A DNA stretch of 64,000 nucleotides from Chryseobacterium sp. StRB126 (GTDB taxonomy: Bacteria > Bacteroidota > Bacteroidia > Flavobacteriales > Weeksellaceae). The notes under the pieces are model-generated. The model did no database searches. It saw only the letters and a list, made by a program, of their open reading frames with translations, and had not been told where the DNA came from. The stretch lies in NCBI RefSeq assembly GCF_000829375.1, contig NZ_AP014624.1:1054001-1118000 (forward strand), written 5' to 3'. The translations under genes and the position numbers were made by a program. Below, one piece after another: positions 8,398-50,703 of the stretch (position 1 is its first letter; each line of letters begins with the position of its first letter).

Positions 8398-9054
8398 CTA
8401 TTTTTTGAATAAGCTAAAGATGCTTTTATTATTTTCTTTGGCGTAATTATAGGCAGACAAGCCTTCAAAAGTCATTTCGTGAGGATCTGCTCCTTTTTCA
8501 AGCAATAATGTAATCATTTCAAGTTGATTGCCTTGAGTGGCTTCTAATAAAGGGATAAATTTTTTGTTTCCTTCGGGATCGGTAAATGTTTCAACTTTCG
8601 TTCCGGATTGTATCAATAGGTTCACCATATTTGCATTCTTGGAGTTGATAGCTGCTATAAGAAGAGAATATCCTTCATCATTGATCTGTGTATTCAGATC
8701 CGCTTTATGGTCTATAAGGAATTTTACCATTGCTTCATTTCCTGTATTGATGGCAATATACAAAGCTCCATAAGCATAGTATTCATCTTCTGCAGCATTG
8801 TTAATATCAGCCCCGTTTTTTAATAGTTTTCCGGCTTCTTCAATGTTTCCGGATTTTACAGCCAATCCAAGTTGATTATATTTTAAATGATCTTCCTGAT
8901 CCTGAGAAGAAGTTTCAACAATTTGCTGAGGTTTTGCTGTAGTATCTTTTAGGGTTACTTTTTCAACTTCTGGCTGGGGGTCTTTTTTTTCTTTTTTGGA
9001 GTTACAACTCCCTAATGAAATTATGGCTAATACAGCTACTACATGTTTTATCAT
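8398..9054 (-). CDS. Ankyrin-repeat lipoprotein
   Basis: 218 aa. SPII signal with lipobox SLGSC (Cys17), then a charged linker. From about residue 57 there are four ankyrin-type repeats: LGLAVKSGNIEEAGKLLKNG, ALYIAINTGNEAMVKFLIDH, LLIAAINSKNANMVNLLIQS and LLEATQGNQLEMITLLLEKG, with the usual G-A/T-D/K turn residues. Ankyrin repeats bind other proteins, so an envelope scaffold or immunity-like role is possible, but the partner is unknown. It lies 13 bp downstream of the next lipoprotein gene. Confidence 0.75.
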   Translation of the reverse strand: MIKHVVAVLAIISLGSCNSKKEKKDPQPEVEKVTLKDTTAKPQQIVETSSQDQEDHLKYNQLGLAVKSGNIEEAGKLLKNGADINNAAEDEYYAYGALYIAINTGNEAMVKFLIDHKADLNTQINDEGYSLLIAAINSKNANMVNLLIQSGTKVETFTDPEGNKKFIPLLEATQGNQLEMITLLLEKGADPHEMTFEGLSAYNYAKENNKSIFSLFKK

Positions 9055-38317: not shown

Positions 38318-38391
38318 GGTCCTATAGCTCAGTTGGTTAGAGCACCTGACTCATAATCAGGTGGTCCCTGGTTCGAGCCCAGGTGGGACCA
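38318..38391 (+). tRNA. tRNA with CAT anticodon (probably Met)
   Basis: Complete cloverleaf of 74 nt. The acceptor stem GGTCCTA pairs with TGGGACC (one T-G pair), the D stem is GCTC/GAGC, the anticodon stem CCTGA/TCAGG has loop CTCATAA, and the T arm holds GGTTCGAGCC. CCA is not encoded. CAT could be elongator Met or lysidine-modified Ile2; I cannot separate these by eye. The 3' end is the integration site of the adjacent element. Confidence 0.92.
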
Positions 38392-38393
38392 CA
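38364..38393 (+). other. attL core (tRNA 3' end)
   Basis: 30 bp covering the T arm and 3' acceptor strand of the tRNA, repeated exactly at 50674-50703 in the same orientation. After one mismatch, AAAATCAA is also shared, so the duplication extends to about 39 bp. Confidence 0.85.
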
Positions 38394-38526: not shown

Positions 38527-38570
38527 AAGGTGTCCTATTAGGTGTCCCACTTCTACTTTTTGGTGACCCA
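38527..38570 (+). promoter_or_regulatory. Candidate integrase arm-type sites, left end
   Basis: Three related 11-mers: AAGGTGTCCTA (38527-38537), TAGGTGTCCCA (38539-38549) and TTGGTGACCCA (38560-38570). A fourth, AAGGTGTTCTA, is at the right end (50585-50595). Short directly repeated sites near both ends are what tyrosine-recombinase arm domains bind; this assignment is inference. Confidence 0.4.
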
Positions 38571-38589
38571 TTTTCTAAAACTTAAATCA

Positions 38590-39798
38590 ATGAATAACAA
38601 TAAATTATCAATACTTTTTCTATTGCAAAAAGTGAAACTAAATAAACAGGGTAAGTGCCCTATAAAGTGTAGGATTACTTTTCACCAGGATAGAAAAGAG
38701 TTTTCTACTGGATTATTTGTAAATCCTAAGCAATGGGATAGTAGATTACAGAAGGCTAAACCGCCCAATCAGGAAAACAGTTTTATTAATACACAATTAG
38801 GTCTGATTAAGAATGAAATTAATCAGGCTTTTTTATTTCTGCAAGTCAATGAAGAAAACTTTGATGTAGGAGATATTTACTTACAATACAAGGGAGATGT
38901 CTCAATCAGAACCAAAACAATTCTTGAGCTTTTTAAAGAGCATAATGACAGACTTGAGAAGCTTGTAGGAAAAGAGTATTCAATTGCTACACTTTGGAAG
39001 TTTAAACAGGCAAGGGACTTAGTTAAAGGTTTTATTACGTTTTCATTTACTAAGGCAGACTATCAGTTTAAAGATTTGGATTTAAAATTTGTTCAGGATT
39101 ATGAATTTTATTTGAAAACAGAGAAGTCTTTAGCTCTTGCAACAGTAAACAAGATGATTCAAAGGTTTAGGAAAGTTGTTAAAATAGCCATCTCACAAGG
39201 AATTATAGATAGAGATCCTTTTGTAGGGTATAAGGTAAAACGTGTTAAAAAAGAGATAGTTTATTTAACAACAGAAGAATTAAAGAAACTTGAGATGTAT
39301 CAATTTAAGGCAGAAAGATTACAAACAGTAGCCGATATGTTTATTTTCTGTTGTTATACAGGACTAGCTTATAATGAAATGACTAATCTTGAGAAATCTC
39401 ATATTGTAAAGGGCTTTGATGGCAATGAATGGATTAATATGAAAAGGCTTAAAACTCAACAAACTTTATCTATTCCCCTATTGACTAAAAGTAAATTCAT
39501 CATTGAGAAATACAACAATGCACATGAAGTAAAAGTACTGCCAAGTTTCAGTAATCAGAAGTTTAATGCCTACCTTAAAGAAATAGCAGACATTGTTGGG
39601 ATAGAGAAAAGACTGACCCACCATTTAGCAAGAAGAACCTTTGCAACAACAGTATTACTCTTTAATGATGTCCCTATGGAGATAGTGTCAGAGTTGTTAG
39701 GTCATTCAAAAATTACTATTACCCAGGAGCATTATGCTAAAGTTGTAAATAAGAAAGTTAGTGAGCAAATGAATAAATTAAATTCTAAGTTGAAATGA
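38590..39798 (+). CDS. Tyrosine-type site-specific integrase
   Basis: 402 aa from ATG 38590. An earlier in-frame start at 38542 would run through the repeated arm-like sites and is less likely. An N-terminal Arm-DNA-binding region (1-90) is followed by a SAM-like core-binding domain (about 100-200) and the catalytic domain. The box II motif THHLARRTFATTVL and LLGHSKITITQEHYAKV give His, Arg, His and Tyr. At the box I position it reads CCYTGLAYNEM, with Ala where most recombinases have Arg, as in some Bacteroidota integrases. It should catalyse insertion into and excision from the tRNA. Confidence 0.92.
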   Translation: MNNNKLSILFLLQKVKLNKQGKCPIKCRITFHQDRKEFSTGLFVNPKQWDSRLQKAKPPNQENSFINTQLGLIKNEINQAFLFLQVNEENFDVGDIYLQYKGDVSIRTKTILELFKEHNDRLEKLVGKEYSIATLWKFKQARDLVKGFITFSFTKADYQFKDLDLKFVQDYEFYLKTEKSLALATVNKMIQRFRKVVKIAISQGIIDRDPFVGYKVKRVKKEIVYLTTEELKKLEMYQFKAERLQTVADMFIFCCYTGLAYNEMTNLEKSHIVKGFDGNEWINMKRLKTQQTLSIPLLTKSKFIIEKYNNAHEVKVLPSFSNQKFNAYLKEIADIVGIEKRLTHHLARRTFATTVLLFNDVPMEIVSELLGHSKITITQEHYAKVVNKKVSEQMNKLNSKLK

Positions 39799-39848: not shown

Positions 39849-42335
39849 ATGAAAGGAGAATTTATAGATCCAATTAATGGAGTTGAAATTGAGTTTAAAC
39901 AAATAAATACAGATGATTTTGAAAGTAAATATTATTCTGTTGAAAAAGAAATTATAAAACCCAATAAGAAAGGATATTTAGCTGATTCCTTAAAACCAAT
40001 ATTAGATGATGAATTTGATGTTAAAAACACTGTTGTAATAAATGCAGGAGTTGGTCAAGGTAAATCAAGAACCATCATGGATAAGGTTTTAGATTATTCA
40101 ATGAGTAAAGAATATATTGTAATTATAGCAGTACCTTCTAATAATCTTATAGAACAATATGAAACAGATTGCTTAGTTAGAGGAATTGCTCCAGATAATA
40201 TCTTTAATATCATTCGTATTAATCAATATGATTTTTTAAAGAGTGAAAAGGAAATGACAAGTCATGCGATAAATTTCTTTCACGTTGATGATACTGACTT
40301 AATTAGGAAATCAAATATTTCAGATTTTAGAGTTCATATAATGACTACTAATGCATTACTAGGTAATCCTGGTGAAAACTTTATCTTCCCTGCAAGTAAA
40401 AGAATTAACTATTTTGAAAAACTTGTTGATCATTGTAACATCAATAAGAAAAAATTAATTATTGTTTTTGATGAAATTCATGATGCTATACAGAACTTTA
40501 GAGAAGAATACATCTATAAATTATGGAATTTCCAGAACTTAGTTCATAAGACATTTATCATTAGTGCAACATTCAATGAGGCATCAAAAGAAGTCATAAA
40601 ATACATCTCTGAGTTTACAGAAAAAAAAATAAAAATAATTGAATCTGAAAGGGTCATAATACCTGCAAGACAAAGTAAATTGAATTTTATCTTCAATGAT
40701 TATAAAAAAATTAATAACAATACTTTTTATAAAGAGTTAATAGTTAAATTACTTAATAGTAAAAGTACATTTGATATAATAGTATATTCAAAAAAGCAAA
40801 TTAAACAGTTAATTAAAAATGGTCCTTTATCACAGATTAAAGGAGAATTAAACTTATGCTATAGAGATGTTTTTGACTTTGAGAATGATAATGATAAAAA
40901 ATATGATCATGATGAAAAAGTTATTAATGTAGGTACAAACTTTACTACTGGAATTAATATTGAAAAAAAGGATCATATATATATTATCATTTTACCTAAA
41001 AGATTAAAAATAGATTTTGTTAATAATAGAGGTGTTTTTACCAATGGTGTCAATACAATTATACAAACATTAGCTAGGCAAAGGCTTCCAGGAGAAATTT
41101 ATATCATAATGCCTACACCATATTATATAAATGCTAAATCTCTCCCTTATGATTCTGAGATCAATACTCAGATAGTCAATTCTTTCCAAAAATATGCTAG
41201 TGGTAAAGTGGTAAGCTATTCAGATACAAATAAAGAAAAGAAGCTGTTGAATAAGGCATATAAAAAATTAACTGATTTAAATACTAAGGCATCTGAAAAC
41301 ATCCAAAATACTGAAAGAACTGGTATGAATAGTTTGGATTACCCTTCTAAAGAAAGATTTATTTTAGAGAAAGGAGAAAACTATTTAACTCAAAAGTTTT
41401 TTGATGGTGATTTGTCTACCTATACCTTCTTTGCAGCTTTAAATAATCAATTTCTAAATTGCAGAATAAATAAACTCTATAGGGATAACAAAATTATTTT
41501 TGAAAAAGGTTCTTTTTTTGAAACTATACAAGAAATGTATAATGATTATGCATTTGATGTAGTACCACCAGGGGTGGAAGGGGGGTACAAGGAAGAAAGA
41601 TATGCTGAATATTACTCTGAGTTCTATGTTTGGAATAAATTGCTAAATATGTTGCCTTCCAAGGAGTTTTATTTTGAAGGAGGTAAGCGTGATGCAACCC
41701 CTGCTGAAATAGTATTTATAAAGAGATACCTTCTCATGTTAGTTATTAGTCATGGTAAAATAGATAGGGAATTTACTTCCAGAGAACTAGGTAAAGAACT
41801 TACTCATGCATATTTAAAATCATGCATTAGATTTTCTAATATACCTCTCTTTGAGGATGAAGCTAAGTATTATACAAAAACAGAATATAATGATGACTAC
41901 CCAATTTCAATAACAGATGCTAATTTAATTCTTCACTATAAAAAATGGGATGAATATATTAACTTAATAGAAAATGAAATATTCTTGTACAAAAACAAGA
42001 GAATTCTACCAAAATTTCCAAGTACTGATTTTGTAAATAAGTTTAAAAAAGAGAAGTTTAATACAGAACTAGAAAATTTATTGACAATTGACCCAATAAT
42101 AAGTGCTGATATCATTCCATTTAAAGATACTTATTCTAATACAGTTAAAGCAAAGAGAGTAGAGTCTTTCTTCAACTTATTAATAGACTCATTTTTCAGT
42201 AAAAATATTAAAGATATACAACCTACTATTAATGGTAAAAGGGAACAAAGACATTATCGAGATATTGCTAGAATTGATTTGGCTCAATTTTATCTTAATC
42301 TTCTCTATGATAAAATACCATCAGCAATTTTATAA
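39849..42335 (+). CDS. SF2 helicase-like protein of the element
   Basis: 828 aa. Walker A is NAGVGQGKSRTIM near residue 65. The DEAH-like box is IIVFDEIHD near residue 205, motif III is IISATF near 242, and a motif VI-like segment is IIQTLARQRLPGE near 408. The C-terminal 400 residues have no motif I recognise and are rich in Lys, Asn and Asp. Such proteins in phages and islands usually serve replication as origin-binding or replicative helicases. It is the largest element gene and lies between two inverted repeats. Confidence 0.7.
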   Translation: MKGEFIDPINGVEIEFKQINTDDFESKYYSVEKEIIKPNKKGYLADSLKPILDDEFDVKNTVVINAGVGQGKSRTIMDKVLDYSMSKEYIVIIAVPSNNLIEQYETDCLVRGIAPDNIFNIIRINQYDFLKSEKEMTSHAINFFHVDDTDLIRKSNISDFRVHIMTTNALLGNPGENFIFPASKRINYFEKLVDHCNINKKKLIIVFDEIHDAIQNFREEYIYKLWNFQNLVHKTFIISATFNEASKEVIKYISEFTEKKIKIIESERVIIPARQSKLNFIFNDYKKINNNTFYKELIVKLLNSKSTFDIIVYSKKQIKQLIKNGPLSQIKGELNLCYRDVFDFENDNDKKYDHDEKVINVGTNFTTGINIEKKDHIYIIILPKRLKIDFVNNRGVFTNGVNTIIQTLARQRLPGEIYIIMPTPYYINAKSLPYDSEINTQIVNSFQKYASGKVVSYSDTNKEKKLLNKAYKKLTDLNTKASENIQNTERTGMNSLDYPSKERFILEKGENYLTQKFFDGDLSTYTFFAALNNQFLNCRINKLYRDNKIIFEKGSFFETIQEMYNDYAFDVVPPGVEGGYKEERYAEYYSEFYVWNKLLNMLPSKEFYFEGGKRDATPAEIVFIKRYLLMLVISHGKIDREFTSRELGKELTHAYLKSCIRFSNIPLFEDEAKYYTKTEYNDDYPISITDANLILHYKKWDEYINLIENEIFLYKNKRILPKFPSTDFVNKFKKEKFNTELENLLTIDPIISADIIPFKDTYSNTVKAKRVESFFNLLIDSFFSKNIKDIQPTINGKREQRHYRDIARIDLAQFYLNLLYDKIPSAIL

Positions 42336-42339
42336 AAAT

Positions 42340-42385
42340 GCACAAGTTTTCCTGAGTGTATATATTAACTGAGGAAAATCTGTGC
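42340..42385. repeat. 46-bp palindrome, copy 1
   Basis: Arms GCACAAGTTTTCCT and AGGAAAATCTGTGC, separated by an 18-bp centre that contains TATATAT. The same structure, with identical arm length, identical 18-bp spacing and an AT-rich TATATA centre, occurs at 48291-48336. It starts 4 bp after the helicase stop. Confidence 0.8.
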
Positions 42386-42397
42386 AGATTTTATCAG

Positions 42398-42428
42398 CCA
42401 ATCTTATTCATATAAGGTTGGTTTTTTT
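42398..42428 (+). terminator. Terminator after the helicase gene
   Basis: Stem CCAATCTTAT / ATAAGGTTGG (one G-T pair), 4-nt loop, seven Ts. Confidence 0.75.
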
Positions 42429-42516
42429 GTTTTCTGAAGTATACCAGGAACAGAATATTATTCATTTTCAACATTAAATAATCAATTAAAAATATTAATA
42501 ATTAAAGTTTATAACT

Positions 42517-43470
42517 ATGCAATTAAAACAATCACAAAGACAACAGGTAAAGCTCAGATTAGGTTTGTCAGGTGCATCAGGCTTTGGAAAGACCAAGTCA
42601 GCCCTATTATTAGCCTATGGTATGACAAAAGATTGGAGCAAGATTGCTGTCATTGATACAGAAAATTCCTCTGCTTCTTTATATTCAGATTTAGGAAATT
42701 ATAATGTATTGGATTTACAAGCTCCTTATAGCCCTGAAAGATACATACAGGCAATTGAACTGTGTGAAAAGTCAGGAATTTCTGTTATTATCATTGATTC
42801 TGCAAGCCATGAATGGAATGGTACTGGTGGATGTCTTGATATTCATGAGAAACTAGGTGGAAGATTTCAGGATTGGGCTAATGTCACACCAAGACATCAA
42901 GCATTTATTAATAAGATACTACAGTCAACCTGCCACATTATTACCACTACTAGGAGAAAAATAGACTATTCTTTAGATGTTGGAAGCAATGGTAAAACTC
43001 AGGTAGTAAAGCATGGAACCAAAGAAATCACCAGAGATGGTTTTGAGTATGAATTAACCATAAATTTTGAGTTAGTCAATGAAAACCATTTAGCTAAGGC
43101 AAGTAAGGATAGAACAGGACTATTTATGAACAAGCCTGAATTTATTATTACCTCTGACACAGGTAAATTAATATTGAACTGGTGTAATTCTGGAATTGCA
43201 GAAACTGCAACTGTTTCAACTGGTATGGATTCCCCTGCCAGTCCTCAAAGCTCTATCAAACCTATTACTTTTGATCCTGGTATAAATTACTTATCTAAAG
43301 ATGATATTCTAACTAAGATTAAAACCAGTAATACCATTGCAGAGCTTTTAGCTATCTATAAACAATATCCTGAATACCAGAAAGAACTAAGATCTCAATA
43401 TGAAGCCAGAAAATCATTCTTAATCAAATTATCCAACCCTCAAAACTTTTCAACCAATGGACACCATTAA
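42517..43470 (+). CDS. Sak4-like RecA-fold ATPase
   Basis: 317 aa. Walker A is GLSGASGFGKTKSALLLAYG near residue 19, the first strand end is IAVIDTENSSASLYSD (Walker A-prime acidic), and Walker B is VIIIDSASHEWNG near residue 92. This order and spacing match phage Sak4/AAA_24 proteins, which are single-strand annealing or recombination ATPases. The C-terminal 90 residues are probably a flexible tail. It ends 14 bp inside the start of the DUF3871 gene, so the two are translationally coupled. Confidence 0.75.
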   Translation: MQLKQSQRQQVKLRLGLSGASGFGKTKSALLLAYGMTKDWSKIAVIDTENSSASLYSDLGNYNVLDLQAPYSPERYIQAIELCEKSGISVIIIDSASHEWNGTGGCLDIHEKLGGRFQDWANVTPRHQAFINKILQSTCHIITTTRRKIDYSLDVGSNGKTQVVKHGTKEITRDGFEYELTINFELVNENHLAKASKDRTGLFMNKPEFIITSDTGKLILNWCNSGIAETATVSTGMDSPASPQSSIKPITFDPGINYLSKDDILTKIKTSNTIAELLAIYKQYPEYQKELRSQYEARKSFLIKLSNPQNFSTNGHH

Positions 43471-44638
43471 TAAAATCAGACCAGTTACATTAGAAGAAGC
43501 ATTTGAATTGAGACCAGCACAGAATATTAAAGAGATTTCTTTGTATGAAAGTAGAATGAACAATGGCACAGCTCATCATTCAAATCAGGATTATTTTATT
43601 CCTGGTGCTGTTTCAACTGAATTAGAACAAGATAAAGTCTGGCAAGAGTTTGATAGTTCTCTTCAAAGTATTGAAGTTCACCAGGAAAATAAATCAATAG
43701 AAGAGAAACCATATGAATACAAACCTTTCATTGAAGCAAACACACAAGAAGTCAATCTCTATCAGTTAAAGAATGATTGTATTATTCCTGTATTCTCTAA
43801 AGACAATGAAAAAAACATTGCTCATCAGGAATTTATTGATATTACACAGGACTGTATTAGTAAAGTGTTTTCTCATCAATCTTTTATGCAACCTGAAATA
43901 AGAGTTTCACATCAAATTAAAGGCAGAACTCCTGATGCTATTTATAAGAATGCAAAAGATTTATTAGATCATGAAAGAACACAGTATTTTGAAAGGATGG
44001 CATTTATTATTAGGATTCCTGGTATAACAGATTCAATTAATGGTAATGAGCTATCATTAACAGTTGGTGGAGTTAGAGCCTATAATCAGGAGAATTTATA
44101 CAATAAAAAAACTTTTGAAAAGTTTAAGTTCTTCATTGGCTTCCAAAACAAAGTGTGTTGCAACTTATGTGTTTGGAGTGATGGTTTTGTAGATGATATG
44201 AGAGTAAACTCATACCAAGAGTTGCAAAGTAAAATAATGAACACTTTGACAGAATACAATGCACAACAACATCTATTGGAAATGCAAGGGTTTTCAGACC
44301 ATTACTTAACTGAGCATCAGTTTGCTCAATTATTGGGAAGAACTAGGCTGTATCAACACATATCTAAAACTGAAAAACAGAGATTAAATATCCCTCAGTT
44401 AACTTTCAATGATAGCCAGTTAAATACAATAGCTAAAGACTACTACGAAGATGAGAGTTTTTGTAAGGCTGATAATGGAGAGATTAACCTATGGAATGTA
44501 TATAATCTCTTTACACAAGCTAATAAGAGTAGTTATATAGATACTTTCCTAGATAGGAATTTGAATGCCTTTGAATTTACTAAAGGGATTCAGAAAACAC
44601 TCAGTGATAATTCTAATTATCATTGGTTTTTGAGTTAG
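43457..44638 (+). CDS. DUF3871 family protein
   Basis: 393 aa. After a variable N-terminus (1-145), the conserved part starts at IRVSHQIKGRTPDAI. It continues through LTVGGVRAYNQENLY, FKFFIGFQNKVCCNLCVWSDG and the C-terminal NLWNVYNLFTQANKSSYID. The family is almost restricted to Bacteroidota mobile elements and has no known activity. Overlap with the Sak4-like gene suggests a joint role in element DNA metabolism. Confidence 0.8.
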   Translation: MDTINKIRPVTLEEAFELRPAQNIKEISLYESRMNNGTAHHSNQDYFIPGAVSTELEQDKVWQEFDSSLQSIEVHQENKSIEEKPYEYKPFIEANTQEVNLYQLKNDCIIPVFSKDNEKNIAHQEFIDITQDCISKVFSHQSFMQPEIRVSHQIKGRTPDAIYKNAKDLLDHERTQYFERMAFIIRIPGITDSINGNELSLTVGGVRAYNQENLYNKKTFEKFKFFIGFQNKVCCNLCVWSDGFVDDMRVNSYQELQSKIMNTLTEYNAQQHLLEMQGFSDHYLTEHQFAQLLGRTRLYQHISKTEKQRLNIPQLTFNDSQLNTIAKDYYEDESFCKADNGEINLWNVYNLFTQANKSSYIDTFLDRNLNAFEFTKGIQKTLSDNSNYHWFLS

Positions 44639-44641
44639 ATA

Positions 44642-44660
44642 GGCTACTCTTTTGAGTAGC
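44642..44660. terminator. Short convergent terminator hairpin
   Basis: GCTACTC / GAGTAGC with a 4-nt loop between the convergent DUF3871 gene and the 199-aa gene. The T tract is weak (TTATTT), so function is tentative. Confidence 0.45.
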
Positions 44661-44664
44661 TTAT

Positions 44665-45264
44665 TTACACATCCAATTCTACTCTAATGTGCTTAAGAAC
44701 TCCTATTAACCATTTTGTTACTTTCGCAGGCTCAGAAATCTTATGAATATGGGTTTCATCTTGTTGCCAATTACCTAACATAGCAAAATGGAAATTCTTA
44801 ATATCGAAAACCTCAGCTTTTGATAGTTCAAAAACCTCAAATGTTACTTGCTCCTTTTCCCCTAAAAAGTTATTAAAATTATTTGAAATTGCAACATCAG
44901 TTGTAATGTGCCAATGAGGTTGTGCATGAATTTCATCATCTCTATCATAGTCATCCCATTCTGCTCTAAATAACTGGTGCTTATTTGACTGAGCATCTGC
45001 TCCCTTAAAGACAGAGAGTGAAATAAAAGTATGATTTGAAACAAATCTAACCTCAACATACAAATAAAAATCTTCAAACCAATTTAATACAGAAACTTCA
45101 AAAATGTCATTTTTTTTTCTATTTAAAGCTTTAGAGTTTCCTTGTATCTTATATACTTTAGCACTATTTGATAAGATATTTTCTTCAAGCTTGAAAACCT
45201 GATTAGGGAAAAGGTATTTACAGCTATCATTTATATTAGTAATTAATTCCTCATGATTAATCAT
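44665..45264 (-). CDS. Unknown protein paired with the N6-methylase
   Basis: 199 aa, acidic, soluble, no signal peptide. It has a His-rich segment HAQPHWHITTD near residue 114 and a late THIHKISEPAKVTKWLIGVLKH, with an aromatic/acidic stretch RAEWDDYDRDDEIH between. I do not recognise the family. It begins 6 bp after the methylase stop on the same strand, so the two genes form one operon. In known defence systems a small unknown gene directly after a methylase is often the effector, specificity or inhibitor part, but that is inference. Confidence 0.6.
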   Translation of the reverse strand: MINHEELITNINDSCKYLFPNQVFKLEENILSNSAKVYKIQGNSKALNRKKNDIFEVSVLNWFEDFYLYVEVRFVSNHTFISLSVFKGADAQSNKHQLFRAEWDDYDRDDEIHAQPHWHITTDVAISNNFNNFLGEKEQVTFEVFELSKAEVFDIKNFHFAMLGNWQQDETHIHKISEPAKVTKWLIGVLKHIRVELDV

Positions 45265-45270
45265 AATAGT

Positions 45271-47598
45271 CTAAAATTTAGGATAGAAATAAGTTGTCAA
45301 AACCTCATCTATTGAATATTTAGCAAGCGAATTTCCATTAGATAATTCTTTACCTAATTCTACTAGTTTTACATATTCCTCTGATTTTTTATCAAGGTTA
45401 TAAATGTTTGGGATAGGTATATCTTTAGTATATGTTTGTCCTAAGTAATAACCAGACATTATAGGCTTAGAGAAGATTGAAAGAAAATTATCAAATATCC
45501 CACTTGAAAAGACAGATAAATAAAAGAAAAAATCATCATCACTCATAGCTCTCTTAGAGCTCCATGCATTCCCTCTTTCAACTACAAAGTCACCAACATT
45601 ATCAAATCCAAAAGAATCTGATTTACCAAATTCTGTAGAGAATAATCTTTTTTCTTTTTTTCTTAACCATGCTCTATGCTCACTTAGTAACCACCAATTA
45701 GCTTCAGAATTTCTAGGTCTATTTGTTAACACGTTTTTATATTCAAGTAATCTGGAGTATGAGTATGGTGCAAAATCTAATAGTTCTCCCTCACTTTGAA
45801 ATAAAGATTTTTCTTCATTATAAGGATACCATATATAGTTTTTTAAAGTGATAACACCATTTTTAATTGAGTCATTTCCTATTACTTTTCTATATAAATG
45901 TATCTCAGCTTCAGGAATGGACTCAAATTCTTCTTTTGATATGATAAATGCATTGTTGTTACCACTTCTTATTCCCTGCTTGACTGTAAATATTTTTGAG
46001 ATGTGAACTAGTTTATTGTCTAAAATAAACCTTTCAGTATTCTTTATGAAATTATTTTCCTTAAGTGAGATAATATTCCATGAATCTTTTACAAATGGAA
46101 ATGATGTTGGAGTATATATGCTATAATTTTTTTCTTCAACTGACAATTCATTGTTTTCCGTTGACTTTCTTAACTCCCTAAGTGCTTCTTGTACAGTTCC
46201 TTTTTCATTTTTGGTCCAAATTACTTTTGGGGCTAATGCTGACTTAGGTTTTTTTCCTATAAATAAACTGACATCTGTTAACGCATCTTCAAATACAAAA
46301 TTTCCAAGTTTCGCAATTAATTTAATTGTTAATTCTTCTTGAAATTCATTTCTCAAAGAACTGTATGATTCTCTTTGTAAAATTGATGATGGGAGGACAC
46401 ATCCTAAAATTCCAGAACCCGCTAATGCTCCTTTTGCTTTGTAAAAGAAAGCACTTGCTTGATTTGGTTTTCCTTTTTTAAAAGATGCTGATAAAGTATC
46501 TAATATAATAGCTCTGCTATCCTTGTTCTTAATAAGCTCCCATGAAACAAAAGGAGGGTTCATTAGTATTATATCATTATTATCACCCCAGTTTTCTAAT
46601 AAAGAGTCGTCAACGACTCTTAACTCAATGCTTAAGTTATTTTGCCATTGTATTCTATTTTCGTACTCTAAAAGAAATCTAGATGTATTGATAGCACTTT
46701 CTGATATATCAAAGCCCCTTATAGAAACTCTACCCTTGTAATCTAATTCTCTTAATTGTTTAAGTACTTCAATTAGAAATTCAGAAGACCCACAAGCAGG
46801 GTCAAGAATGGTTAATTCATTCTTGTCTATATCAATTTCTTTTAAGCAATTTTCTACTATACTTCTTGCAATATATTGTGGAGTATAATGTATACTTGAG
46901 TAAGAGTCTGTTTTAGTTATCAGTTTACTGGATACTCCTCCAAATAAATCTCTTTGAGGACTAAAATAAATCACTTCTCTATGAGCCTCTTGAAATAAAG
47001 CTCCTGAAGTATGCCTCAAAATTAAATCAAGATTAGGTTTTATAGATTTTATTCCAGCTCTTATTGTTTCTACAAAATATTCAAACCTATCAGGAATGTT
47101 TTCTACATTAAATCCCCAATCCTCAAATTTAATAGTTGAAAAATCTTCTTCAATACTTACTAGTAGAAGATATAATAGGTTTAAAGCTTCTTTAGCATTT
47201 TCCTTTTCAAGAGTAAGATTACGTAATTGTCTAAAAACATCTATTATAAAAGGAACAACATCATTTTGAGTTTTAAAAGATTTTAATAATAAATATTCAT
47301 AAAATTTTTCAGAATTAGATATTATTTGGGTTTTAGATACTTCTTCAACAGAGTTATTGTACCAGTTGAAAATTTTTAATTTATCCTCCCCCAGTATTAA
47401 ATAATTTTTAGTATTTGTAGACCAGGAAGATTGAAAATAAGTTTCCAAACTATCATCACTATCAAAAGATTGAAAACAAAAATCTGAGGTACCACCATTA
47501 AGCATCAGAAACCTTTCTTCTCCATTTTGTGGCACAAGATGCATAGGTAAAAGACCATAGTTCTTTTTCCAAAAATTTTTATCTCCTAGATTTCTCAT
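45271..47598 (-). CDS. N6-adenine DNA methylase, type IIG/Eco57I-like
   Basis: 775 aa from ATG 47598. A frame up to 47790 exists but its extra 64 residues run through the promoter region and are rejected. Methylase motif I is LDPACGSSEFLIEVL near residue 264, and motif IV is ILMNPPFVSW near 340, the NPPF form of gamma-class N6-adenine enzymes. A target-recognition-like region follows (from about 540, IFTVKQGIRSGNNNAF). Residues 1-200 are helical with no clear PD-(D/E)xK nuclease motif. A TATTTTTGC box lies 4-12 bp upstream on the minus strand. Confidence 0.78.
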   Translation of the reverse strand: MRNLGDKNFWKKNYGLLPMHLVPQNGEERFLMLNGGTSDFCFQSFDSDDSLETYFQSSWSTNTKNYLILGEDKLKIFNWYNNSVEEVSKTQIISNSEKFYEYLLLKSFKTQNDVVPFIIDVFRQLRNLTLEKENAKEALNLLYLLLVSIEEDFSTIKFEDWGFNVENIPDRFEYFVETIRAGIKSIKPNLDLILRHTSGALFQEAHREVIYFSPQRDLFGGVSSKLITKTDSYSSIHYTPQYIARSIVENCLKEIDIDKNELTILDPACGSSEFLIEVLKQLRELDYKGRVSIRGFDISESAINTSRFLLEYENRIQWQNNLSIELRVVDDSLLENWGDNNDIILMNPPFVSWELIKNKDSRAIILDTLSASFKKGKPNQASAFFYKAKGALAGSGILGCVLPSSILQRESYSSLRNEFQEELTIKLIAKLGNFVFEDALTDVSLFIGKKPKSALAPKVIWTKNEKGTVQEALRELRKSTENNELSVEEKNYSIYTPTSFPFVKDSWNIISLKENNFIKNTERFILDNKLVHISKIFTVKQGIRSGNNNAFIISKEEFESIPEAEIHLYRKVIGNDSIKNGVITLKNYIWYPYNEEKSLFQSEGELLDFAPYSYSRLLEYKNVLTNRPRNSEANWWLLSEHRAWLRKKEKRLFSTEFGKSDSFGFDNVGDFVVERGNAWSSKRAMSDDDFFFYLSVFSSGIFDNFLSIFSKPIMSGYYLGQTYTKDIPIPNIYNLDKKSEEYVKLVELGKELSNGNSLAKYSIDEVLTTYFYPKF

Positions 47599-47601
47599 AA
47601 T

Positions 47602-47610
47602 GCAAAAATA
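47602..47610 (-). promoter_or_regulatory. Candidate promoter box of the methylase operon
   Basis: Minus strand reads TATTTTTGC, fitting TAnnTTTG, ending 3 bp before the ATG. This would give a very short or absent leader. The upstream -33 element is not clear. A C-rich stretch with three CCCCC runs follows at 47668-47721. Confidence 0.4.
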
Positions 47611-47836
47611 TACAACTTTTATCTTTAAGGTTATATTTTTTCTAAAAAAAAAATATTTAAGGATAAATCCCCCTCTGAAGACCCCCACCAATAATTGGGA
47701 AAGGAAAACATCCCCCCACCAGTAAGAATAGAAAGAAAATTTCGCAGGCAGTAATATTATCAAGGTGATAGCTGATGTACTATTGCTCACAATTCTTTTG
47801 TTCCTGGTGTTTTATCTAACTCAAAAATCAACTATA

Positions 47837-48232
47837 ATGGTAACAATTATCAACTACAAACAAAGACAAAAAGAAGATGGTTCTACATTCTATGTACTAG
47901 AAGTTCAGGGAGGTATTGAAATGGTTATGAGCCAAACTACAAATCAGTTCTATGCCACATCCAAAAAGGCTTCCATTTCATCAACATTTGATGAACTTAC
48001 TTGCCAAGCTCTTATAGGAACTCAAATGCAAGGTAGTATCATTAAACAAGAATGTGCCCCTTATGAATATACTGTTAAGGACACTGGAGAAGTGATTGTT
48101 CTTCATCACAGATTTGTATACTCAGCACAGGAACCAGGAGCAAAGAATACTGTTAAGCAACAGGTAAGCAATAGTTTTGCTACTGATATGGAGTCTTTCT
48201 CTAAGAATGGAAAGCACATTGAGTTTGCTTAG
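47837..48232 (+). CDS. Small conserved element protein (131 aa)
   Basis: Starts at ATG 47837. The preceding 24 in-frame codons form a hydrophobic run (VLLLTILLFLVFYL) that does not fit the rest and is probably not translated. The protein has a compact beta-rich pattern: GSTFYVLEVQGGIEMVMSQTT, TFDELTCQALIGTQMQGSII and APYEYTVKDTGEVIVLHHRF (landmarks). It lacks known motifs. Similar small proteins accompany Sak4-like and RadC-like genes in Bacteroidota islands, so a single-strand-binding role is possible but unproven. Confidence 0.6.
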   Translation: MVTIINYKQRQKEDGSTFYVLEVQGGIEMVMSQTTNQFYATSKKASISSTFDELTCQALIGTQMQGSIIKQECAPYEYTVKDTGEVIVLHHRFVYSAQEPGAKNTVKQQVSNSFATDMESFSKNGKHIEFA

Positions 48233-48247
48233 CCTAACAACATAATA

Positions 48248-48290
48248 TCCAAATTTTATTATATAGATTTTAGTAAGATTTGGATTTTTT
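48248..48290 (+). terminator. Terminator after the 131-aa element gene
   Basis: Stem TCCAAAT / ATTTGGA with a 23-nt AT-rich loop and six Ts, ending directly at palindrome copy 2. Confidence 0.55.
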
Positions 48291-48336
48291 GCACAAGTTT
48301 TCCTTTTCTATATATAAGAACTAGGAAAACCTGTGC
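48291..48336. repeat. 46-bp palindrome, copy 2
   Basis: Arms GCACAAGTTTTCCT and AGGAAAACCTGTGC (one wobble position) around an 18-bp centre with TATATA. The left arm is identical to copy 1 at 42340. It lies between a terminator and the RadC-like gene. Confidence 0.8.
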
Positions 48337-48384
48337 ATTTATGTTTAAAGCATGGCTTCACTTAACTTAAAATATTACAATACA

Positions 48385-48813
48385 ATGGAGATATCAGTCA
48401 TTTATAACACTAATAATCAGGAAAGAATAAAAATAACAAATCATAAAGAAGCCTATGAATTAATTATTAAGAATTGGAATCTTAATATCATTGAATTTCA
48501 GGAAGAATGTAAGGTGATTTTAATGAACAAAGGAAACTATGTTTTAGGAATTTATGATGTTTCAAAAGGAGGTATAGATAGTTCAGTAGTTGATATAAGA
48601 ATTATTTTGGCTGTAGCTCTTAAATGCAATGCTACTCAGTTGATCCTGGTACACAATCATCCAGGTGGAAATCTTAATCCAAGTAGTTCAGACATAAATA
48701 TTACAGAAAAATTAAAGAAATCATGTGAGCTATTGAATTTGTCTTTACTGGATCATTTAATTATCACAAGACATCATTACTATAGTCTCAATGAGGAAAA
48801 CAAGTTTTTATAA
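48385..48813 (+). CDS. RadC-type JAB domain protein
   Basis: 142 aa from ATG 48385; an upstream start at 48352 would add 11 poorly matching residues. The JAMM-like metal motif is LVHNHPGGNLNPSSSD near residue 89, preceded by GNYVLGIYDVSKGGIDSSVVD and followed by LLDHLIIT. Short RadC-like proteins are common in Bacteroidota mobile elements and lack the HhH domain of chromosomal RadC. The activity is not established. Confidence 0.85.
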   Translation: MEISVIYNTNNQERIKITNHKEAYELIIKNWNLNIIEFQEECKVILMNKGNYVLGIYDVSKGGIDSSVVDIRIILAVALKCNATQLILVHNHPGGNLNPSSSDINITEKLKKSCELLNLSLLDHLIITRHHYYSLNEENKFL

Positions 48814-48905: not shown

Positions 48906-49127
48906 TTATACTTCAAAATTAAGAAGCTCAAACACCTCAACTTCTAACTTTTGAGCAATAACATATAATGTATAAGCTGTAGGGTTAGTATTTCCAGCTT
49001 CAAGTCTGCTCATATTGGACTTTTCAAAGTTACAGAATGCAGCAAGCTCAACTTGTGATATTTTCTTTTCTTCACGAAGTTGTCTTATTCTTTTACCAAT
49101 AGCAATCTGAAACTCTTTCTTATCCAC
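48906..49127 (-). CDS. XRE-family helix-turn-helix regulator
   Basis: 73 aa, a single HTH domain: RIRQLREEKKISQVELAAFCNFEKSNMSRLEAGN (landmarks REEKKISQ and SNMSRLE). It ends soon after, with a short tail and no sensor domain. It is divergent from the lipoprotein gene at 49227. Candidate half-sites lie between them at 49161-49189. It probably controls the cargo or the element itself. Confidence 0.85.
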   Translation of the reverse strand: MDKKEFQIAIGKRIRQLREEKKISQVELAAFCNFEKSNMSRLEAGNTNPTAYTLYVIAQKLEVEVFELLNFEV

Positions 49128-49226: not shown

Positions 49227-49655
49227 ATGAGAAAATCAATTTTATTACTTATTGCACTATTAACACTAACAGTATCTTGTAGTAGTAATGATGACAATAA
49301 CAATGATAGTTCTACCTTGGTAAAGCTTGATAATACTGCATGGTCAGGGGTATTCTCTTCTACTGAAATTAAAATCATGACCAATAACACCATGAATTGG
49401 GATAATGAGAAGATACAAGTTCAATTTAAAGAAAACAACGGTTTTAAGCTGTATGGATATGGAAAGAACTCACAGAATCAATGGATTATTAATAGTGGAC
49501 CATATAATGGGACTTACACATATTCATCTACTGGTACAATAAAACTTAATTATGAATCTGGAGCTACTTTTAATCCTCTAAATAGTGGTACAATTTCAGG
49601 TTCTGTAATGACATTGAAAGTAGGAGATAACCAGTATAAATTTAACCAGGAATAA
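49227..49655 (+). CDS. Small lipoprotein cargo gene (142 aa)
   Basis: SPII signal with lipobox LTVSC (Cys18), then a Ser/Asn/Asp linker. The mature domain is beta-rich (WSGVFSSTEIKIMTNNTM, YNGTYTYSSTGTIKLNYES) like small lipocalin-type or calycin folds, judged by eye only. It is followed after 5 bp by a membrane protein gene, so the two probably form a pair. Function is unknown. Confidence 0.65.
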   Translation: MRKSILLLIALLTLTVSCSSNDDNNNDSSTLVKLDNTAWSGVFSSTEIKIMTNNTMNWDNEKIQVQFKENNGFKLYGYGKNSQNQWIINSGPYNGTYTYSSTGTIKLNYESGATFNPLNSGTISGSVMTLKVGDNQYKFNQE

Positions 49656-49660
49656 AGAAA

Positions 49661-50065
49661 ATGTCTACTTTACTATTTATCATTTCAGTAGTTTTATTTC
49701 AGCTACCATTTGCAACTTATCAAGACACAATTAGAAGATTTAAAAGAATGCAGAAGTATAATCCAGATAAGGCTTTTAACTATGAGCTTAAAAATGGCAA
49801 ATTAAGTGAAAATACATTACTTCTTTTCCTGGTATTTTTCAGTGGATTTATAATTGCATTATTCCCTTTATATAAGGGTATTAACTTGCATTGGTTGATA
49901 CTTATTATAAGCAATATTATCTGCCTGTATTTAGTAACGCCTTTTATTGCATTTAGATTATATCCTTCTGAATTAATTTATGATAGAAAGATAGTGCTCA
50001 CTAAAACAGTTATGTACATTGTTTTTGGAGTTATTTTTTATGTTATAGGAAATAGCCTTAAATAG
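49661..50065 (+). CDS. Small membrane protein cargo gene (134 aa)
   Basis: Four hydrophobic helices: about 3-18, 53-69, 77-100 and 114-131. An amphipathic Arg/Lys-rich stretch follows the first helix (TIRRFKRMQKYN). No conserved motif is seen. It lies 5 bp downstream of the lipoprotein and ends before a terminator hairpin. Confidence 0.6.
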   Translation: MSTLLFIISVVLFQLPFATYQDTIRRFKRMQKYNPDKAFNYELKNGKLSENTLLLFLVFFSGFIIALFPLYKGINLHWLILIISNIICLYLVTPFIAFRLYPSELIYDRKIVLTKTVMYIVFGVIFYVIGNSLK

Positions 50066-50120
50066 ATTAATACTTATGGGATTCTATCATGAGTTAAGAA
50101 TAATATAAAACTAATATTTA

Positions 50121-50147
50121 GCCACCATAAATAAGGTGGTTTTTTTA
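50121..50147 (+). terminator. Terminator of the lipoprotein/membrane pair
   Basis: Stem CCACC / GGTGG with a 9-nt loop and seven Ts, about 55 bp past the stop at 50065. Confidence 0.6.
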
Positions 50148-50161
50148 TACCTGTAAACCAA

Positions 50162-50569
50162 ATGAAAAATGAGATACATAAGCATCTGAAATTTAGGATT
50201 GGGGAAGAACAATGTAAACATGAGTTTGAGCTTTTTTATAAAGAAGAATACTGTTGTAAAAAGTATTGCTATGAAGTATATGAGTTTGATAAGGCAGATA
50301 ATGAGCATTTATTTGACCTGAAAATTGAAGAAATACTATTATACTACAATGCTGATATATTAACTAAGATAGACTACTATTTCAAACCTAATTTATATAC
50401 AAAATTAAAAGTGTGGATAGAGCAGTTTATAGGCATTGCTTATGAGCAAAAGTTTATTAACAATACTTACTTTTGCTCCTGGTATGTTGGAAGATATTTT
50501 ATAATACTGAAAAGAATAATGAACAATGACCAAATAACTTTATCATACCAAAAAAGGAAATATATTTAA
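50162..50569 (+). CDS. Unknown cytoplasmic protein at the right end of the element (135 aa)
   Basis: Charged, aromatic and Cys-rich (EEQCKHEFELFYKEEYCCKK near residue 17) with no signal or membrane helix. It does not match any family I know. The start at 50162 follows the terminator at once, so the gene needs its own promoter. It is the last gene before attR. Confidence 0.5.
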   Translation: MKNEIHKHLKFRIGEEQCKHEFELFYKEEYCCKKYCYEVYEFDKADNEHLFDLKIEEILLYYNADILTKIDYYFKPNLYTKLKVWIEQFIGIAYEQKFINNTYFCSWYVGRYFIILKRIMNNDQITLSYQKRKYI

Positions 50570-50627: not shown

Positions 50628-50701
50628 GATCTATGTCCTCAGTTGGTTAGAGACAGGGATTGATAATCCCAGTGTCCCTGGTTCGAGCCCAGGTGGGACC
50701 A
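50628..50701 (+). pseudogene. tRNA-like decoy with GAT anticodon at the right end
   Basis: Aligns with the real tRNA at 38318 over 74 nt without any insertion or deletion. The D loop (CTCAGTTGGTTAGAG) and the T arm to the 3' end are identical. The anticodon arm differs but keeps four of five base pairs by compensatory change (GGGA/TCCC) and shows loop TTGATAA, anticodon GAT (Ile). The acceptor 5' strand no longer pairs at three of seven positions, so a functional tRNA is unlikely. Confidence 0.6.
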
Positions 50702-50703
50702 CA
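50674..50703 (+). other. attR core
   Basis: Exact 30-bp direct copy of the tRNA 3' end at 38364-38393. It defines the right boundary of the element. Confidence 0.85.

Follow-up and report, generated by a model that had tools for sequence, protein, structure and literature searches.

What do two almost identical palindromes do inside a small integrated element? The question is raised by a stretch of 64,000 nucleotides from Chryseobacterium sp. StRB126 (contig NZ_AP014624.1, positions 1,054,001 to 1,118,000; here called the window), which carries a 12.3-kb element integrated in a tRNA-Met gene and, within it, the palindromes P1 and P2. A first-pass annotation, made from the letters alone, had named replication-origin elements, binding sites for a recombinase or regulator, packaging or satellite-interference signals, and RNA hairpins as possible roles, without ranking them. 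Comparison with related islands of Bacteroidota favours an origin element tied to the helicase gene (hel) beside P1, and disfavours an RNA hairpin or a recombination site that brackets cargo. On balance we think it probable that P1 and P2 are paired OriS-like replication origins of an excisable island, recognised by its own hel product. The features on which this reading turns are:

39849..42335, + strand: hel, an 828-aa superfamily 2 (SF2) helicase, proposed to be origin-binding, with a divergent C-terminal region at ~545-828 (Pfam DEAD, conservation profile, AlphaFold2 (AF2) model, Foldseek, palindrome co-variation)
42340..42385, no strand: palindrome P1 (arms of 14 bp, AT-rich spacer of 18 bp), a proposed OriS-like site (sequence comparison)
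47837..48232, + strand: p155, a conserved core protein, OB-fold-like and resembling single-stranded DNA-binding proteins (SSBs) (alignment, AF2 model, weak Foldseek SSB matches)
48291..48336, no strand: palindrome P2, second proposed OriS-like site (pattern match, own-P1 pairing)

The pattern GCACAAGTTTTCCT-N18-AGGAAAAYCTGTGC is located at 42340-42385 and 48291-48336, exactly where the first-pass annotation had placed two palindromes of equal arms and spacing, and has an expectation of 0 in 100 shuffles. Each site is 46 bp long, with 14-bp arms around an 18-bp centre containing TATATA. The arms of P1 and P2 are identical in 27 of 28 letters, the sole difference being a T/C position, and the centres are dissimilar except for TATATA, so that the arms are indeed the better kept part. 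On the opposite strand the same pattern is matched with 3 mismatches at P1 and 2 mismatches at P2. With up to 3 mismatches allowed, P1 and P2 are the sole occurrences in the organism's own genome (5,503,743 bases); both lie inside the island and not, as the annotation had considered, at random sites unlinked to elements. A relaxed form of the pattern has no match in the viral contigs or the 97 other genomes searched. Both sites are intergenic and stand beside the genes that had been named, P1 beginning after a 4-base gap from the hel stop and P2 lying 15 bases from the RadC-like open reading frame (ORF). Judged by sequence alone, each has the build of an OriS-type origin, with inverted arms around a TATATA spacer.

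Similar elements elsewhere (labelled here as L-numbered loci) show that the place of P1 is conserved and its arms are not. From 70 near-full helicases, 50 non-redundant members were retained, and in 43 of these a comparable palindrome with other arms and an AT-rich centre stands at or just past the hel stop. This count uses a loose threshold of 8.5, at which L071, L153, L170, L175, L181, L183 and L184 are left out. The P1-type palindromes are ~45-65 bp long, typical forms being AAAATGTCCACTTTTCGTA - AT-rich centre - TACGAAAAGTGGACATTTT, and also AATCCGTCCAAAATCCC..., GCATCATTTTTTCC... and ACACTTTTTTGTAAA... When palindromes starting from -20 to +45 relative to the hel stop were scored, with 20 shuffles per locus, 44 of 57 hel loci reached at least 9.4, versus 3.5% of shuffles and 19% of 757 other ORF ends; at least 11 was reached by 37 of the 57, versus 0.7% and 9.5%, respectively. 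In elements lacking the helicase, the corresponding gap between the integrase gene (int) and the Sak4-like recombinase gene (sak4) has no site of comparable build in 14 of the 16 listed (of 17 such elements); several of the 14 have a shorter hairpin of ~22-32 bp, and L050 has a 50-bp hairpin without TATATA. In L159 (3255-3450) P1 is present after the helicase in two identical tandem copies.

In about half of the elements a second site that matches P1 follows p155. When whole loci were scanned with the element's own P1, the best second site fell in the gap after p155, which makes up 2.5% of the sequence, in 19 of 29 elements, compared with 18.8% for foreign P1 queries. A score of at least 15 in this gap was obtained by 16/29 elements with their own P1, about half, versus 8.9% of 812 foreign pairings (permutation p=5e-5). 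The set of 29 includes close relatives (L130, L131, L067) and a truncated helicase (L158), and a 33-element set also used here includes near-duplicates; the P1 sites of L047, L073 and L075 were taken from the P1-P2 cross-match, which favours a match in those three. L074 and L134, in which p155 is unrecognised, have a strong second site following a 126-aa ORF. Two or more palindromes, each with its own arms, often share the gap after p155 (L048, L065 and L072 are examples). The clusters of L048, L049, L065, L072 and L075 include one palindrome that corresponds to the resident P1 and one that is similar to a site found in another element.

The protein of the island whose similarity tracks that of P1 is hel. 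Mantel tests drew on the 43 elements with a located palindrome, of which 37 had all genes (23 for the P2 test, with the P2 of L048 added by hand). P1 similarity follows hel (r 0.40 for the N-part and 0.38 for the C-part, p=0.002, n=37) and does not follow int (r 0.09, p=0.11), sak4 (0.02) or the DUF3871 gene (0.05). When helicases are clustered by C-part, 9 of the 10 grouped with that of the window have a TTTTCC inner arm, as does L067 outside the cluster. A dimeric regulator, such as the small XRE-type protein encoded at the right of the island, might instead govern the sak4 and radC operons, with P1 and P2 as its operators; the dyad symmetry would suit this, as would the position of each site ahead of one of these genes (P1 of sak4, P2 of radC), and P1 does correlate with XRE similarity (r 0.25, p=0.003, n=22). 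However, hel gives 0.43 in the same 22 elements, an XRE-like ORF is present in 11 of 17 elements without helicase, P1 in the window starts at the hel stop, and a terminator-like hairpin lies between P1 and sak4. We regard operators as distinctly unlikely.

That hairpin also bears on whether the palindromes act as RNA:

42396..42423, + strand: terminator-like hairpin with T-run, distinct from P1 and downstream of it (terminator scan, RNA fold)

Both palindromes follow stop codons, and their predicted RNA folds are strong (-22.2 kcal/mol, z -6, for P1; -20.6 kcal/mol, z -7, for P2), which would suit a hairpin or terminator at the 3′ end of each transcript, that of hel and that of p155. Neither, however, is followed directly by a T-run, has the short-loop GC stem plus T-run of an intrinsic terminator, is among the listed terminator-like hairpins, or has a match in an Rfam scan, and the terminator role that the annotation had allowed for is disfavoured. 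Mismatches between arms are G.T in 28 and A.C in 33 cases across the 43 P1 sites, and 23 and 16, respectively, across 33 P2 sites, neither being significant and neither showing a G.U excess; the orientation of P2 relative to P1 varies between elements. Because of the lack of G.U excess, the varying orientation and the separate terminator-like hairpin, a DNA-binding site is the better reading of these sequences, and a role as RNA seems to us very unlikely.

The likeness to the herpes UL9/OriS system was proposed before any hel structure was at hand, and the Foldseek search came after it. Conservation of hel falls at ~545 of 828 residues, the N-part (1-545) being conserved and the C-part not. 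The N-part is an SF2 motor: Pfam DEAD matches 50/50 members, and residues 17-546 of the model match SF2 helicases by VIA-align. With the AF2 model of hel (predicted local distance difference test (pLDDT) 86) as query against the PDB, the top four chains found by Foldseek are the herpes simplex virus 1 (HSV-1) origin-binding protein (OBP) with OriS, at E values of 2e-12 to 4e-11, the next match being at 3e-8; the OBP alignments span 879-958 columns. In the viral library a giant-virus SF2 helicase ranks first, and 8 of the first 12 rows, from rank 2, are named origin-binding proteins. The p155 model (AF2, pLDDT 77) is barrel-like and strand-rich, and its best Foldseek matches are SSBs, which are weak (E 8e-3, none at 1e-3).

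As outlined in PMC12543377, OBP comprises a helicase at residues 1-535 and a DNA-binding part at 536-851, binds Boxes 1 and 2, which are inverted around an AT-rich spacer, and has ICP8 as its SSB partner. The C-terminal part of OBP binds DNA sequence-specifically and carries an RVKNL motif. The island resembles this in the size of the SF2 helicase (828 residues in hel, 851 in OBP), in the N-terminal motor followed by a C-terminal region of ~300 residues, in the inverted arms around an AT-rich spacer, in an SSB partner (SSB-like p155 here) and in the best Foldseek match. It differs in that its arms are unrelated to Box 1 and vary between elements, there is no clear sequence-family match, and it is a small integrative bacterial element. 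SF2 helicases related to UL9 also occur on prokaryotic mobile elements (pVOG9714; T4-like phages, SPbeta), according to the passages of PMC5862659 and PMC1594570 that deal with them; those passages concern phage proteins and primase fusions and describe no origin sites, whereas hel is stand-alone and accompanied by paired palindromes. Among titles and abstract openings in the literature we found no description of these islands or of a UL9-like origin in Bacteroidota; DUF3871 is mentioned in one paper among those searched.

In the scheme that we favour, the divergent C-terminal region of hel would bind every 14-bp arm, in inverted pairs, and the SF2 motor would melt the AT-rich spacer that separates them, with its TATATA. 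The SSB-like p155 and the Sak4-like recombinase would take over the exposed strand, and the host replisome would then copy the excised circle. These steps, from binding and melting to replication and excision, are inferred by us, as is what p155 and Sak4 contribute.

A number of observations weigh against paired origins read by hel. As P1 physically adjoins hel, linkage contributes to their co-variation. P2 does not track the hel C-part (r 0.03), with values of 0.26 for the N-part and 0.28 for p155 (n=23). Beyond the N-part, the C-part contributes nothing in one test and a partial correlation of 0.125 (p=0.013) in another; from these sequences, the C-part as sole determinant of specificity is weakly supported. 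Thirteen of the 29 elements have no strong second site of their own type; among them, L067, L130 and L131 show a P2 whose inner arms are similar and whose outer arms are different, L159 ends just past p155, and L052 is one of a tandem pair. Seven of 13 helicase-less elements with p155 (L054, L055, L058, L062, L063, L064 and L077) keep a similar palindrome after it, which needs relics, modular exchange of right ends, or helicases acting in trans. L063 shares its genome with the hel-bearing L068, and their P2 sites are nearly the same; L077 shares a genome with L052, whose post-p155 palindromes its own resemble. For L054, L055, L058, L062 and L064 no hel is present in the same genome among the genus-search matches listed. 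Two helicase-less elements, both with a winged-helix-like gene, have another palindrome, with AATAAAAGATAT arms, in the int-sak4 gap:

oriented L054, ~8550-8593: AATAAAAGATAT-armed palindrome after the winged-helix gene (dyad scan)
oriented L079, ~2405-2460: AATAAAAGATAT-armed palindrome after the winged-helix gene (dyad scan)

No second copy of this dyad was found in the L054 or L079 loci, nor was it found at the same place in the similar L051; from its sequence it looks like a small palindromic insertion.

The structural likeness is likewise qualified. TM-scores of the OBP alignments are ~0.3, and the rigid comparison by VIA-align puts generic DEAD-box helicases first, with OBP outside its best 50 rows. 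The Pfam family Herpes_ori_bp (PF02399) gives no match to the hel of the window at E up to 10 (filters remove most above 0.1) and matches only 5 of the 50 members, weakly, the best at 1.7e-4. A search of the genus with Herpes_ori_bp gave matches in 11/171 genomes (and in 2/14 control genomes, below the cut-off), nearly all of them short (54-75 residues), lying where the motor begins and found also in an unrelated family of 850-aa Chryseobacterium helicases (L203-L209; 7 loci). Because of these short matches at the motor start, shared with the 850-aa family, Herpes_ori_bp was dropped as support. In the 850-aa family none of the seven loci has a TATATA-type palindrome after the stop, and three have other hairpins scoring 9.0-11.2. 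The C-terminal region of hel is likened to that of OBP by position and size. Since membership by sequence family is lacking, we describe the island as working like an OBP/OriS system and do not class it as a member of that family.

The pairing of hel with its sites would fit equally well if they were cognate sites for a task other than initiation, such as copy-number control, incompatibility or self-recognition, partition, or help with excision. P1 stands beside hel and P2 beside the SSB-like gene under this alternative too, and it can draw on the post-p155 palindromes kept by elements without helicase. It is countered by the outcome of the fold search, which points to origin-binding proteins, and by the contents of the slot between int and sak4, which holds hel, a gene with motifs that we take to be polymerase-like, or a winged-helix-like protein, and suggests a replication module. 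We judge such another task unlikely.

The setting of P1 and P2 within the island bears on whether they are sites of recombination. The element ends in an exact 30-bp repeat of the tRNA-Met 3′ end (38364-38393 and 50674-50703), with the intact tRNA at the left, and its order is tRNA-Met, integrase, hel, P1, terminator-like hairpin, Sak4-like gene, DUF3871 gene, 199-aa gene, methylase, p155, P2, RadC-like gene, XRE and three small ORFs. The features other than those given above are:

38318..38392, + strand: tRNA-Met (CAT), integration target, left end (ARAGORN, Rfam)
38364..38393, + strand: left attachment core, 30 bp of the tRNA 3′ end (exact match to 50674-50703)
38542..39798, + strand: tyrosine integrase (Pfam Arm-DNA-bind_5, Phage_int_SAM_5, Phage_integrase)
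42517..43470, + strand: Sak4-like recombinase (AAA_24; phrog_1366, a family to which no function is assigned); calling it Sak4 is presumptive and follows the first-pass annotation
43457..44638, + strand: DUF3871 protein, conserved core gene (Pfam, E 2e-144)
44665..45264, - strand: cargo, 199-aa protein (no family match found in Pfam, phrog, PADLOC and NCBIfam scans)
45271..47790, - strand: cargo, N6-adenine DNA methylase of restriction/defence type (Pfam, PADLOC; NCBIfam match below cut-offs)
48241..48291, + strand: terminator-like hairpin after p155, with an arm ATCCAAATTTTA similar to the post-p155 palindrome of L055 (hairpin listing, RNA fold)
48352..48813, + strand: RadC-like JAB-domain protein (Pfam)
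48906..49127, - strand: small helix-turn-helix regulator, presumably XRE-type from its sequence (translation; similar ORFs also in helicase-less elements)
49227..50569, + strand: three small ORFs (142, 134 and 135 aa), right end (ORF list)
50674..50703, + strand: right attachment core, 30 bp of the tRNA-Met 3′ end (exact match to the left core)

The inverted arms around a short centre, and the variable region between P1 and P2, might suggest attC- or lox-like sites for site-specific exchange of cargo, and the sites do bracket the Sak4-like, DUF3871 and methylase genes as had been pointed out. However, the Sak4-like gene, the DUF3871 gene and p155 are conserved core, with the variable part running from DUF3871 to p155, so that core genes and not cargo borders are bracketed. 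The centres of P1 and P2 differ, and such site-specific recombinases usually require identical crossover centres. The integrase, which does not co-vary with P1, is of the Arm-DNA-bind_5/SAM_5 tyrosine type and lies beside the tRNA. These features are not those of attC sites, which border cassettes of single genes and recombine through IntI, and we give exchange of cargo at P1 and P2 hardly any credence.

The p155 ORF as listed (47765-48232, 155 aa) overlaps the methylase start; because conservation begins only at residue 25, the true start is probably 47837. The hairpin at 48241-48291 is perhaps a relic, a shortened former site, to judge from its arm. The first right-end ORF (49227-49655) has a sub-threshold match to the BSAP-5i immunity protein (E 8.5e-5). 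Like satellites of the phage-inducible chromosomal island (PICI) or P4 type, the element is integrated and has an integrase, a replication-type helicase gene and two separated cis sites, and no virion family was found among the 10 island ORFs scanned with Pfam and phrog. In phage P4 the origin is bipartite (ori and crr), the alpha protein is a primase-SF3 helicase and the sites are short iterons, unlike the arrangement here, and no helper or packaging gene was identified in the island.

Elements of this family share the plan int - hel - sak4 - DUF3871 - variable genes - p155 - RadC region, with exceptions, as far as the sequence reaches. DUF3871 is present in 25/147 related genomes, in 23 above the family cut-off. 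An alignment of hel matches 21 of 173 genomes in the genus (one by a short weak stretch only and four by fragments or split genes only), 18 of 386 in the order (10 strong and 8 weak) and 5 of 395 in the class, weakly in all except the genome of the window. Among genome contigs the alignment finds 47 loci (in Chryseobacterium, Flavobacterium, Zunongwangia, Tenacibaculum, Dysgonomonas and others), where a single hel sequence as query finds no match; it also finds three loci on two viral contigs. Searches of plasmid and phage records gave no match. A tRNA gene (Met, Ser, Val, Asn or Asp) lies within ~400 bp of the integrase in 17/20 loci scanned, the exceptions being L052, L075 and L163. PADLOC matches 6 of 10 cargo ORFs, chosen from 37 listed and drawn from seven elements, including type IIG restriction enzymes, Lamassu LmuB and a CARF protein.

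Where hel is absent, the int-sak4 slot is empty or is occupied by one of two genes, the first on the minus strand and 466-494 aa long, the second coding for a winged-helix-like protein of 240-246 aa. The minus-strand gene (L046:6923-8407, L053:6951-8414, L055:6547-7947, L058, L062 and L078) has NSQP and HDS motifs, which to us recall family-A polymerases, and no Pfam match in the three tested; its sequence suggests that it is possibly an alternative replication gene. The second type, winged-helix-like in its C-terminal part, is found in L051, L054 and L079; that of L054, the one tested, has a weak TFIIE_alpha match only. L052 and L076 (G025:C1:2261001-2301000) are tandem family elements with identical helicases and unlike cargo. 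In L135 and L136 the helicase gene is broken into two frames, and both were left out of the analyses.

We also advance, tentatively and with the odds against it, a wider proposal: that this Bacteroidota island family replicates from OriS-like palindromes with a UL9-like helicase; that the arms diversify fast, each element forming its own specificity group; and that the clusters after p155 let the helicases of other islands fire the element, making origin recognition the level at which islands parasitise one another or keep one another out. To our knowledge, the arrangement of an OriS-like palindrome with a UL9-like helicase is otherwise known from herpesviruses. If the reading of P1 and P2 as OriS-like origins is right, herpesviruses would not be alone in having an SF2 helicase that recognises an origin built as a palindrome with a spacer that melts; this would occur also in small, genetically tractable bacterial elements, whose many natural helicase-site pairs would be a large set of specificities from which to learn how helicases of this kind recognise DNA. 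It would also explain the replication of a group of islands that often bear defence genes, and would bear on the origin of the herpesvirus replication system.

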